A stretch of 64,000 nt of DNA from an uncultured Crocinitomix sp. (GTDB lineage Bacteria; Bacteroidota; Bacteroidia; Flavobacteriales_D; Crocinitomicaceae): contig CAJQHR010000029.1 in assembly GCA_905478225.1 (NCBI GenBank), forward strand, positions 1-64,000. Direction: 5' to 3'. The notes below the pieces were generated by a model. That model ran no database searches. It saw only the letters and a list, made by a program, of their open reading frames with translations, and was not told the origin of the DNA. Below are positions 44,783 through 58,978 of the stretch, in pieces. Position 1 is the stretch's first letter. Each line of letters opens with the position of its first letter. A program made the translations under genes and the position numbers.

Positions 44783-46573
44783 CTAATCCAATTTTAGAAC
44801 CGCCAAGAAAGCTTCTTGTGGAACCTCTACACTTCCAACTTGACGCATTCTTTTCTTCCCCTTTTTCTGCTTTTCTAATAACTTACGTTTACGAGAAATA
44901 TCACCACCATAACATTTAGCAGTTACATCCTTACGCAAGGCCTTGATCGTTTCTCTCGATACAATTTTTGCTCCAATAGCTGCTTGAATCGGAATTTCAA
45001 ATTGTTGTCTTGGAATCAATTCCTTCAACTTAATACAAATTTTCTTCCCTAAACTATGTGCATTACTTCGGTGTACCAAAGCTGAAAGTGCATCCACCTG
45101 ATCTCCATTTAAGAGAATATCCATTTTTACCAAATCAGATTTATGATAATCTATCGGGTGATAATCGAAAGAGGCGTATCCACGAGAAACTGATTTTAAT
45201 TTATCGTAGAAATCAAAAACAACTTCTCCCATTGGCATTTCAAACGTAATCTCAACACGTGATTGCGTTAAGTAAACTTGATTTTTAAGTTCACCACGTT
45301 TCTCAATACACAAATTCATGATTTGCCCAACATAGTCTGACTTGGTAATGATTTGTGCGCGTATATAGGGTTCCTCGATATAATCTATTCGAGAAGGATC
45401 AGGCAATTCAGATGGATTGTTTACCACCTGCATGATATTATCTTTTCTTAAAAATGCTTTGTATGATACATTGGGAACAGTTGTAATAACCGTCATGTTA
45501 AACTCACGCTCTAAACGTTCCTGAATAATTTCCATGTGTAACATCCCTAAGAATCCACAACGGAAACCAAAACCTAAGGCTGCAGATGATTCAGGTTCAA
45601 AGACCAAAGAAGCATCATTTAATTGCAGCTTCTCCATGGAATAGCGCAATTCTTCATATTCATCTGTATCTACAGGGTAAAGCCCAGCAAACACCATTGG
45701 TTTTACATCTTCAAATCCTTGTACAATTTCTTTAGTAGGATTCGCTACGGTTGTAATCGTATCCCCAACTTTAACCTCGTTCGCTTTTTTAATTCCCGAA
45801 ATGATATAACCAACATCACCAGCTAGCACCTCTTTTCTAGGCTCCATATCCATTCTCAAAATACCAATTTCATCTGCGTAGTATTCGCGTTCAGTATTCA
45901 CAAATTTGACAAGATCACCTTTTTTAATCTTACCATTTAAAACACGATAGTAGGCAATAATACCCCTAAATGAATTGAATACAGAATCAAAAATCATAGC
46001 TTGAAGCGGTGCTTCAACATCTCCAACTGGAGCTGGAATTCTTTCAATAATTGCTTTTAGAATTTCTGGAACTCCAAGGCCTGTTTTGCCACTTGCAGGA
46101 ATCACATCAGAAGGATCGCAACCAATAAGGTCAACAATTTCATCCGTCACCTCTTCAGGTTGTGCGCCGGGTAAATCCATTTTATTCAGAATTGGAATAA
46201 TTTCCAAATCATTTTCTAAAGCCAAATATAAATTTGAAATAGTTTGAGCTTCAATCCCCTGTGCGGCATCAACAATTAATAAAGCGCCTTCACAAGCAGC
46301 AATAGATCTTGAAACTTCATATGAAAAATCAACATGGCCGGGCGTGTCAATCAAGTTTAGGGTATAATCAATCCCATCTTGTTTGTAATCCATTTGAATG
46401 GCATGACTTTTAATTGTAATCCCTCTTTCTCGCTCAATATCCATATCATCCAAAGCTTGGCTTTGCATGTCTCTGTCCGCTATCGTTCCGGTAGTTTGCA
46501 ATAACCGATCGGCCAAGGTGCTTTTACCGTGGTCAATATGAGCTATGATGCAAAAATTCCTGATATTCTTCAT
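44783..46573 (-). CDS. lepA: Elongation factor 4 (LepA)
   Basis: A 596-residue ribosome-dependent GTPase. G1 is [14 protein letters not shown]2 [11 protein letters not shown]3 DTPGHVDF and G4 NKMD, followed by domains II, III and V and the LepA-specific C-terminus ([23 protein letters not shown]). It acts on stalled or mislocated tRNAs and in ribosome biogenesis. The -7 box TATTTTTG ends four bases before the ATG, so the mRNA is predicted to be leaderless. Confidence 0.97.
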
Positions 46574-46577
46574 GCTG

Positions 46578-46585
46578 CAAAAATA
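46578..46585 (-). promoter_or_regulatory. -7 box TATTTTTG of lepA
   Basis: Minus-strand exact TAnnTTTG match four bases before ATG 46573. Given the usual distance from the box to +1, transcription should start on or beside the A of the ATG. A TTTG lies 26 bases further upstream, a little far for a -33 element. Confidence 0.55.
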
Positions 46586-46850
46586 GAAGATTTTAATTTA
46601 ATTCTTCCTATCAAACCCATGAATAACGCGCAATAAGCGTTCTTATTTTCGTTTTTAGATTTTATTCACCCTGATTCAGCGATTGAAGGCAGCTAGTTTT
46701 TGAAGAATAGCATGGTAATTTCGCTTTTTTCGAAATATCGTTGATTCAGATTAGAACTGCATATGTTTAAAAAGAAAGCGGCAGAAATAAAGAAAAAGAA
46801 TTGCGTTTAGAAGGCCTTAAAAAAAGGATTGTTGCTTAAAGACTTATTTC
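46586..46850. other. Gap upstream of lepA without a gene
   Basis: AT-rich, no ORF or hairpin of note. It leads into the candidate RNA locus on the plus strand. Confidence 0.5.
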
Positions 46851-46877
46851 TTGGTGCAATTTTTAGCACGATTTTTG
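46851..46877 (+). promoter_or_regulatory. Candidate promoter of the double-hairpin RNA
   Basis: TTG (46851-46853), 16-base spacing, then GATTTTTG (46870-46877), one mismatch from TAnnTTTG. It is about 25 bases before the first hairpin. Confidence 0.4.
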
Positions 46878-46882
46878 CGTTA

Positions 46883-46975
46883 TAAGCGACAGTTGGATTA
46901 AAGCCCTACCTTGGTAACGTAGGGCTTGGGTATATGGCCTTCCCTTGGTTTTTCCTCGGGAAGGCTTCTTTTTCA
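46883..46975 (+). ncRNA. Candidate small RNA with two hairpins and terminator
   Basis: Hairpin 1 pairs AAGCCCTAC (46901-46909) with GTAGGGCTT (46919-46927). Hairpin 2 pairs GCCTTCCC (46937-46944) with GGGAAGGC (46958-46965) and is followed by TTCTTTTTC, an intrinsic terminator. Both hairpins place a CCTTGG string at the start of their loops. With the promoter upstream this makes a discrete RNA of roughly 90 bases that ends before the DUF2851 gene. It could instead be the leader of that gene or a terminator pair. Flavobacterial RNA classes (Flavo-1, 6S-Flavo) should be compared. Confidence 0.5.
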
Positions 46976-47028
46976 TTAAATATTCCCTATATTCATACTC
47001 CAATCCCAAAACTTTTCATTTCAATCAT

Positions 47029-48297
47029 ATGAAAGAGGAATACTTGCACCACGTGTTCAAGAAAAAAATGTTGGGCAATAGCTTCAAAACTGTAAATAAT
47101 CAAAGTTTAAAAGTACTCGATTTTGGAGAGCATAATTCAAATGCAGGACCTGATTTTTTAGACGCTAAAATTTTACATGACGGTCATATTTGGGCGGGTC
47201 CAATTGAATTTCATGTAAACGCCTCGGATTGGTATAAGCACAAACATCAAACTGATGCAGCGTATAATAATGTGATCGCTCATTTTGTTTACAATTATGA
47301 TACTGATGTTTTAGTTAATGAATTTCAAATACCTACCGTGGAGCTACAAGACAAGATTAATTTGAACCATTTCGATAAATACAAAGGATTAGTTCAAGCC
47401 GACAAAAGTATCCTATGTCAAGACGGGATTCCTGAAATTGATTCAGCAATAATTGAAGAGCAATTAAAGGAAAGTTTAGGAGAACGTCTTTGGAAAAAGG
47501 CACTTGTCATTATTCAAGATGTGGAGTCTAATATTGGTGATCGAGATAAGGCATTTATATCGGCGATATCGCGAGTGTTTGGCGGTCAGGTGAATTATTT
47601 GCCATTTCAAATGTTAGCAGATAAGTTAGATCCGAAATGGTTTGCAAAGTTAAATTATGAATCAATTCGTATAGAAGCTCTTGTTTTAGGGTTGTCTGGT
47701 TTGCTGAATTTTCATTCAGATAGTGTTCATATTAAAAAGTTGCAAACTGAATTTGTTTATCAAAAAAAACTATTCGGAATAAATGAAATGCCGAAGCAGA
47801 ATTGGAAATATTCTCGAATGAGACCGCACAATTTTCCTGATTTGCGCCTTGCACAATTCGCCGCATGGTTAAATTCCCGACCCGCAACAAATGACTTTTT
47901 AACTACAAATTGGGATCTTAAAAAATGGCGCGCTGCATTTTACATTACACTTGATCCTTTTTGGAAACATCACTTTCGACTAAAAACACGGACAGAAAAC
48001 CGGGTAACAACACATTTATCCAAAAGTTTTGTGGATTTAGTTTTTATTAATGCAGTTGTTCCCTTTATATATGCCATTGGTTTATGGGAGGGTAATGATG
48101 CTTATACGAAACAGGCCATGGAAGTTTTAAAGAAAATAAAACCCGAAAAAAATAGTGTCATTAAAGAATGGAAAAAAGCAGGGGTAAAAGTGAATTCGGC
48201 ATTCGAAACACAATCATTATTAGAGTTAAAAAAACAAGGGTGTAATCGAAAAAAATGCTTATTTTGCGCTCTTGGAAAAAGTATTTTAAATAGATGA
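47029..48297 (+). CDS. DUF2851 family protein
   Basis: A 422-residue cytoplasmic protein. The start at ATG 47029 gives MKEEYLHHVFKKKM, the usual DUF2851 start; a longer frame from 46945 reads through the terminator hairpin and is rejected. Conserved parts are LDFGEHNSNAGPDFLDAKI, GPIEFHVNASDWYKHKH, NVIAHFVYNYD, SRMRPHNFPDLRLAQFA and the Cys-rich end QGCNRKKCLFCALG. Function is unknown; the C-terminal Cys cluster suggests metal binding. The stop overlaps the next start (ATGA). Confidence 0.9.
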   Translation: MKEEYLHHVFKKKMLGNSFKTVNNQSLKVLDFGEHNSNAGPDFLDAKILHDGHIWAGPIEFHVNASDWYKHKHQTDAAYNNVIAHFVYNYDTDVLVNEFQIPTVELQDKINLNHFDKYKGLVQADKSILCQDGIPEIDSAIIEEQLKESLGERLWKKALVIIQDVESNIGDRDKAFISAISRVFGGQVNYLPFQMLADKLDPKWFAKLNYESIRIEALVLGLSGLLNFHSDSVHIKKLQTEFVYQKKLFGINEMPKQNWKYSRMRPHNFPDLRLAQFAAWLNSRPATNDFLTTNWDLKKWRAAFYITLDPFWKHHFRLKTRTENRVTTHLSKSFVDLVFINAVVPFIYAIGLWEGNDAYTKQAMEVLKKIKPEKNSVIKEWKKAGVKVNSAFETQSLLELKKQGCNRKKCLFCALGKSILNR

Positions 48298-56986: not shown

Positions 56987-57061
56987 GCCTCTGTAGCTCA
57001 GCTGGCTTAGAGCAGCTGATTTGTAATCAGCAGGTCGTGGGTTCGAGTCCCTCCAGAGGCT
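56987..57061 (+). tRNA. tRNA-Thr (TGT)
   Basis: Acceptor arms GCCTCTG / CAGAGGC, anticodon loop TTTGTAA with anticodon TGT, T-loop GGTTCGAGTCC. CCA is not encoded. Confidence 0.95.
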
Positions 57062-57083
57062 CAATTTAATACTATTGTTTGAA

Positions 57084-57166
57084 GGGGAGATACCAAAGCG
57101 GCCAACTGGGGCAGACTGTAACTCTGCTGACTTATGTCTTCGTAGGTTCGAATCCTGCTCTCCCCA
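57084..57166 (+). tRNA. tRNA-Tyr (GTA)
   Basis: Class II tRNA, acceptor arms GGGGAGA / TCTCCCC, anticodon GTA in ACTGTAA, long variable arm, T-loop GGTTCGAATCC. CCA is not encoded. Confidence 0.94.
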
Positions 57167-57191
57167 CTAAACAAGTTTTGAAAAAAGCTAA

Positions 57192-57264
57192 GCGGGAGTA
57201 GCTCAGTTGATAGAGCGTCAGCCTTCCAAGCTGAGGGTCGCGAGTTTGAGTCTCGTCTCCCGCT
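57192..57264 (+). tRNA. tRNA-Gly (TCC)
   Basis: Acceptor arms GCGGGAG / CTCCCGC, anticodon loop CTTCCAA with anticodon TCC, T-loop GTTTGAGTC. CCA is not encoded. Confidence 0.94.
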
Positions 57265-57282
57265 CAAAAAACACATATAGTT

Positions 57283-57392
57283 GATCTCGGTTCGCCGAGA
57301 TCGCTAATTGTTTTTAGATGTGTAAAACAAAGACCTAGTCTTAGTTTTACATTTATAACAAATAAGCTGTCAAACGAGGCAGTCGTTATAAA
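57283..57392 (+). other. Three-hairpin structured spacer in the tRNA cluster
   Basis: Hairpin A: GATCTCGG-TTCG-CCGAGATC (57283-57302), an 8-bp stem with a UUCG tetraloop. Hairpin B: TGTAAAAC (57321-57328) with GTTTTACA (57344-57351), then A-A mismatch, AAGAC/GTCTT and a CTA loop. Hairpin C: TTTATAAC (57352-57359) with GTTATAAA (57385-57392). The three nearly touch and lie between tRNA-Gly and tRNA-Thr. They may guide processing or form a small RNA. Confidence 0.75.
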
Positions 57393-57401
57393 TAGATTAG
57401 T

Positions 57402-57473
<72 letters not shown>

Positions 57474-58907: not shown

Positions 58908-58978
58908 ACGGGCGTAGTTCAATGGTAGAATGTCGGTCTCCAACACCGCTGATGAGGGTTCGAATCCTTCCGCCCGTG
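58908..58978 (+). tRNA. tRNA-Trp (CCA)
   Basis: Acceptor arms ACGGGCG / CGCCCGT, discriminator G, anticodon CCA in TCTCCAACA, T-loop GGTTCGAATCC. Lies between tuf and secE, its standard Bacteroidota site. Confidence 0.95.

Follow-up and report, generated by a model that had tools for sequence, protein, structure and literature searches.

Two divergent genes of an uncultured Crocinitomix sp., lepA and a gene of the DUF2851 family, are separated by 455 bases, and the question raised by this gap is whether it holds a small RNA (sRNA) gene of its own and, if so, what would switch it on and how it would act. A sequence-only reading of the window (the whole stretch of DNA that was analysed, 64,000 nucleotides long) had proposed there an unannotated double-hairpin RNA with its own promoter and terminator; the gap itself lies at 46574-47028. 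We are highly confident in the predicted sRNA gene (Table 1). We modestly favour the explanation as a whole, a trans-acting sRNA that would be driven by sigma-54 and act through a 5' seed, whose parts are not independent of one another.

Table 1. Features of the locus, in coordinates of the window.
Feature	Position	Strand	Basis
lepA	44783-46573	-	
Sigma-54-like promoter: -24 element TTAGCACG (46863-46870), N4, -12 element TTGCG (46875-46879)	46863-46879	+	Kept in 6/7 carriers
Whole predicted sRNA, ~83 nt	46891-46973	+	Similarity, covariance models, covariation, promoter spacing
Predicted 5' end and mostly unpaired seed AGUUGGAUUA	46891-46900	+	GUUGGAUU invariant in 7/7; unpaired probability; spacing
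Hairpin 1, stem AAGCCCTAC / GTAGGGCTT, 9-base loop	46901-46927	+	Both-side changes in 6/9 pairs
Linker GGGUAUAU	46928-46935	+	GG.TATAT in 7/7; mean unpaired probability 0.47-0.75
Hairpin 2 (stem 46936-46966) and U-tract, predicted intrinsic terminator	46936-46973	+	98.8% of cells paired
DUF2851 gene	47029-48297	+	

Structure and strand of the hairpins

The predicted RNA begins with an unpaired 5' end, AGUUGGAUU, followed by hairpin 1, the linker and hairpin 2, which runs into the U-tract TTCTTTTT. The two strong hairpins of the sequence-only reading, the second followed by a T-tract, were thus recovered, and they fold better than shuffled sequences: the 125-nt stretch reaches -43.6 kcal/mol, where shuffles average -31.3 (z -3.4), and beats all 200 dinucleotide shuffles, and for 46885-46975, i.e., the predicted RNA with a little flank, the z-score is -2.7 and 3 of 200 shuffles are as good. 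The reverse strand of the stretch folds well too (z -4.9) and folding therefore does not give the strand. The seed has a mean unpaired probability of 0.58-0.83 across carriers and is least accessible in G005 (0.58), whose predicted fold pairs part of the 5' end; a conserved accessible seed of this kind is expected of a trans-acting, base-pairing sRNA.

The alignment of the seven genomes that carry the element is more informative. The stems are conserved, with 142 of 145 cells paired, so the lack of stem conservation that the sequence-only reading had named as a refutation did not occur, and 8 of the 21 base pairs show compensatory changes on both sides (two of the 12 pairs in hairpin 2, the others in hairpin 1), the check it had proposed for related genomes. 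None of 500 shuffles reaches the observed values of four out of five covariation measures (22/500 reach the fifth), and versions of the structure slid along the alignment pair 37-63% of cells, with at most three pairs changed on both sides; both controls overstate the covariation, the structure having been worked out from these same seven, related sequences. When the alignment is read on the - strand, 127 of the 145 cells pair, fewer than on the + strand because 15 cells are G-U, and these G-U pairs fix the strand as +. By this comparison of sequences, both hairpins are genuine features kept by selection, and a conserved structure with compensatory changes is what an independent sRNA should have.

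The sequence-only reading had also placed a CCTTGG string at the start of both loops and suggested that it marks a shared protein or RNA partner. The string does occur literally twice (46909-46914 and 46943-46948), but in hairpin 2 its CC and GG are stem bases and its TT a mismatch between them. Among the seven carriers, the loop of hairpin 1 reads CCTTGG in three, CCGTGG in one and otherwise in three, and hairpin 2 has CCTTGG in two. Since the string is unconserved and similar tops (CTTGG...CCAAG) occur in other terminator-like hairpins of the bacterial family (L039, L046, L055), we do not take it as the mark of a partner.

Occurrence in the genus and known RNA families

A plain DNA similarity search with the window first revealed the carriers. 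It covered 149 genomes, the window's own included; besides the window, it matched G001, G002, G004, G006 and G008 clearly and G005 over a short length. The element is thus present in seven of the nine Crocinitomix genomes searched; covariance models with and without the terminator found no convincing copy in the other two of the genus, G003 and G007. The model of the whole RNA (R1) matched the seven carriers, all Crocinitomix, at 83-108.5 bits among 240 genomes of the bacterial family, high scores that arise because the carriers' sequences built the models. At E <= 0.1, R1 matched 24 of the 240, 17 of them only at 34.7 bits or less, and the best of these 17 is an ordinary-looking terminator. 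The weaker matches that were given a locus (L038-L060) were inspected visually: ordinary terminator hairpins make up many of them, the others are unremarkable, and none has both conserved motifs; the single weak match in G003 (L045, 26.4 bits) has neither. The terminator-free model (R3) matched 15 of the 240 genomes at E <= 0.5, the carriers at 65-80 bits and the remaining eight at 18.9-22.9 bits, none of the latter with both motifs. In a draw of 399 genomes of the order, which did not list G006 and G008, R3 found five matches, all Crocinitomix, and the exact pattern occurred in six genomes, the same number of Crocinitomix (five) plus G159, whose stretch matches a structureless Flavobacteriia stretch (L063). 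The exact-pattern scan of genome contigs returned 26 stretches, with the two hairpins in six (Crocinitomix) and not in the 20 others. Three stretches in viral contigs, all of one sequence type, have a weak first hairpin and lack the terminator hairpin. The strict filters of these many-genome scans lose weak matches, and more diverged relatives may therefore be missed. At this sensitivity of sequence searching, the element is a genus-level RNA family.

Within the genus, GTTGGATT is invariant before hairpin 1, as is GG.TATAT between the hairpins, in all seven carriers. By forced global alignment, identity of the RNA to that of the window is 0.74-0.93; the sequence immediately upstream of the promoter reaches 0.55-0.64 and that downstream 0.52-0.74. 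The tree has low support (38, 64) where G003 and G007 are placed, and it fits losses of the element in these two genomes without proving them.

The RNA belongs to no family that we could recognise. Rfam gave nothing credible at the element, either at the gathering score or at E <= 10; the PyrR binding site (RF00515) scored 20.9 bits (E 1.5), below the gathering cut-off of 54 bits. Flavo-1 and 6S-Flavo, likewise structured RNAs of Bacteroidetes according to the accessible part of their report (PMC2864571), had been named for checking, but their covariance models (RF01705 and RF01685) have no match at this locus, either at gathering or at E up to 10. A search of the whole genomes with 6S-Flavo matched none of the nine, but its control likewise matched nowhere, and absence from these genomes does not follow from it. 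We found no report of this RNA in a literature search of titles and beginnings of abstracts, mostly of papers outside subscription, and we regard it as a new RNA family of an ordinary kind.

A sigma-54-like promoter

Sigma-54 promoters follow the consensus YTGGCACG-N4-TTGCW, and transcription starts about 12 bases after the C of TTGC. The window has the block TTTTTAGCACG-ATTT-TTGCGTT upstream of the RNA, and its core is kept in six of the seven carriers as TTAGCA[C/T]G-N4-TTGC, 12-13 bases before GTTGGATT. The N4 varies (ATTC in G002, GTAT in G008), and G001 carries TTAGCATG. The spacing and most bases are those of a -24/-12 promoter, the doublets in the window being A46865-G46866, N10 and GC at 46877-46878; the first G of the canonical GG is A in all six carriers that have the element, and the seventh, G005, lacks it. 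From the C of TTGC to the G of GTTGGATT there are 13, 13, 13, 12, 13 and 13 bases, a spacing that is fixed though the last bases before the motif differ. By the spacing rule, the predicted start would lie at or beside the A of AGTTGG. Transcription itself, its dependence on sigma-54 and this start site are what we infer. Of the promoter and terminator that the sequence-only reading had assigned to the RNA, the sequence shows a conserved promoter-like block and a stem with its U-tract. Neither was picked up by generic scans for sigma-70 promoters and for terminators: the stem of the terminator is interrupted, and the promoter seems to belong to another class.

The nine genomes all encode rpoN (RpoN, PF04552). 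With a matrix derived from 13 further sites in the genus, the six sRNA promoters score 10.8-20.3 bits, each value reached by none of 2000 mononucleotide shuffles, and the promoter region of G005 scores 0.7 bits (reached by 62/2000); the matrix was built from fixed-pattern hits, which favours such sites. Across the nine genomes, YTRGCACRNNNNTTGC has 35 matches and the reversed control 27; taken genome-wide, the whole pattern therefore shows no clear enrichment. The context could be read for 30 of the 35 (the other five had no locus) and differs between variants. All 13 TTGGCAC matches lie outside ORFs of at least 100 aa, within ~110 bases before the start of an ORF, and by eye they precede sets of like proteins with export-signal-like starts. 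The 14 TTAGCAC matches are split evenly: seven are inside ORFs and seven outside, the latter being five copies of this sRNA and two sites before an exported-protein-like gene (G003, G005). The three CTAGCAC/CTGGCAC matches are all inside ORFs, as are 5135 of 6000 random 16-mers of other loci. Taken together, we consider it likely that the predicted sRNA is under sigma-54 control.

Two sets of sites deserve mention on their own account. In L133, L134, L136, L139, L146 and L148, near position 1501 (1078 in L139), CTTTGGCAC[AG]-N4-TTGC precedes genes whose proteins begin alike (e.g., MKKILGLVAGLMMAAFTFGQS) in six genomes of the genus; judged by sequence, this looks like a conserved member of the sigma-54 regulon. 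In L127 and L132, also near position 1501, the variant found before the sRNA, TTAGCACG-N4-TTGC, stands before a long, similar-looking exported-protein gene, ~5 kb from rpoN (G003, G005).

Rival readings and proposed function

The position of the RNA invites the reading that it is a cis-acting leader or attenuator of a DUF2851 operon, since the gene lies 3' of it on the same strand in five of the seven carriers and, in the window, begins 55 bases past the U-tract. We hold this to be very unlikely: in G004 and G006 the gene is ~4.5 kb away and the RNA is still 93% and 91% identical to that of the window, and G003 and G007 retain DUF2851 without the element. In G004, the intervening stretch has three long ORFs on the opposite strand (L066 286-4696), of which, by eye, two resemble response regulators at their starts and the remaining one a sensor, and a 91-aa ORF on the + strand overlaps the first of the three. 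As to the other neighbour, lepA adjoins the RNA in six of the seven carriers and is 3.4 kb off in G005. The RNA is thus tied to neither gene, because each is distant in some carrier. That it is an independent small RNA, as first proposed, is well supported at the level of sequence by the covariation, the conserved single-stranded motifs, the promoter-like block at fixed spacing, the terminator and the changing neighbours; structure, strand, conservation, promoter-like element and independence from neighbours are all read directly from the compared sequences. A short protein-coding gene, or hairpins arisen by chance, we find scarcely credible. An ORF with an ATG (MAFPWFF in the window) does begin at the linker in six of the seven carriers, but G008 lacks this ATG, in G002 a stop codon follows the seventh codon, the C-terminal parts bear no evident relation to one another, and the covariation exceeds its controls for chance hairpins.

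The same independent sRNA might instead start near 46882 from a promoter of the housekeeping sigma-A of Bacteroidota, whose consensus is TAnnTTTG in the accessible part of PMC9723704: GATTTTTG at 46870-46877 fits it save for the first base, and G005, without the sigma-54 element, has a housekeeping-type box, TACCTTTA, ending 4 bases before GTTGGATT, which would again place the start at the seed. The box is broken in G008 (GGTATTTG) and G002 (GATTCTTG), the -24/-12 layout accounts for the bases kept in six of the seven carriers, and the fixed spacing agrees with a start at AGTTGG, which makes the housekeeping promoter unlikely in our view. We also regard as rather unlikely that the RNA titrates or anchors an RNA-binding protein via GUUGGAUU and GG.UAUAU rather than pairing with mRNAs. 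The former motif is invariant and the latter nearly so, and RbpB of Bacteroides thetaiotaomicron prefers single-stranded regions of noncoding RNAs, according to the accessible text of PMC11697453, but a sponge is expected to repeat a conserved loop motif, and the repeated CCTTGG is unconserved.

A perfect TAnnTTTG box, TATTTTTG, lies on the - strand at 46578-46585, ending 4 bases before the ATG of lepA, and such a box precedes lepA in G003 and G007 as well. Its position suggests that the lepA mRNA is leaderless or nearly so. Elsewhere in the window there are five tRNA genes, four of them clustered (56987-57473 and 58908-58978).

The sigma-54-driven sRNA that we favour would work as follows. 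A promoter of sigma-54 type belonging to the RNA gene would give a + strand transcript of ~83 nt, with hairpin 2 as its own terminator. While sigma-54 and its activator are active, the 5' end of this transcript, AGUUGGAUU, possibly together with the linker GG.UAUAU, would most likely pair in trans with mRNAs close to their start codons. Hairpin 1 would be a spacer and stabiliser, the shape of which is kept more than the sequence. The predicted start falls at an invariant, mostly unpaired segment that is followed by a shape-conserved hairpin and a terminator, which is the anatomy of a trans-acting sRNA, and base-pairing through the 5' end, argued by analogy alone, seems to us fairly probable. 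Which mRNAs it might meet was approached in several ways, all rejected as evidence for targets. The target pattern, AATCCAACT followed by ATG, outnumbers its reversed control in carriers as well as in non-carriers, by the smallest margin in the carrier G005, and codon usage is probably the cause of the excess. When the seed is set against 55 start regions in the window, its best site is equalled or bettered by 49 of 300 shuffled seeds, its number of good sites by 18 and its low mean by 11. The best site of the window (53484) sits in codons kept by the protein; its copy in G004 pairs equally well, those in the carrier G005 and the non-carrier G003 pair less, and the stretches of G001 and G006 examined have no copy.

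Comparison with known sRNAs (by description only) places the element beside several systems. Sigma-54-dependent sRNA genes with -24/-12 promoters are known from Proteobacteria, i.e., Qrr and GlmY/GlmZ, which work with Hfq or RapZ; the element has a block that resembles such a promoter and no match in Rfam. The FopS RNAs of B. thetaiotaomicron, described with GibS as Bacteroidota sRNAs, have a conserved 5' seed that is single-stranded, precedes a terminator hairpin and pairs near start codons of susC mRNAs; in the accessible text (PMC11697453), they form a family of 14 members, ~65-70 nt long, whose promoters are canonical housekeeping ones and whose consensus lacks a first hairpin, whereas the Crocinitomix element has one full-strength copy per genome, an extra covarying hairpin and a sigma-54-like promoter. 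Rfp18 and Rfp11 of Flavobacterium psychrophilum are likewise independent structured sRNAs of Flavobacteriales. In the accessible part of their report, Rfp18 affects protease mRNAs and has at least three stem-loops, with the predicted pairing region in the third and not at a free 5' end, and Rfp11 is listed with an SM6 promoter, attributed by the authors to a sigma factor of ECF type (PMC9723704). The same text describes a sigma-54 (SM4) regulon of chaperones, envelope-stress functions, gliding and exported proteins, and the SM4 promoters named there precede protein genes (PMC9723704). The literature search described above, of the same scope, found no sigma-54-driven sRNA of Bacteroidota.

A more specific role can be imagined, which we put forward as doubtful: the RNA would be an arm of the Crocinitomix sigma-54 response, starting exactly at the seed AGUUGGAUU and repressing housekeeping mRNAs of envelope or exported proteins while sigma-54 activates others. 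If this were true, the element would be a sigma-54-driven sRNA of Bacteroidota. To our knowledge, few sRNAs have been characterised in this phylum outside Bacteroides and Flavobacterium, and the element gives sharp predictions of a 5' end, a seed and a sigma factor. As read from their sequences, most relatives within Crocinitomix have very probably kept a predicted small regulatory RNA between two genes, apparently switched on by an alternative sigma factor, which hints that the sigma-54 regulon may reach mRNAs whose promoters it does not control.
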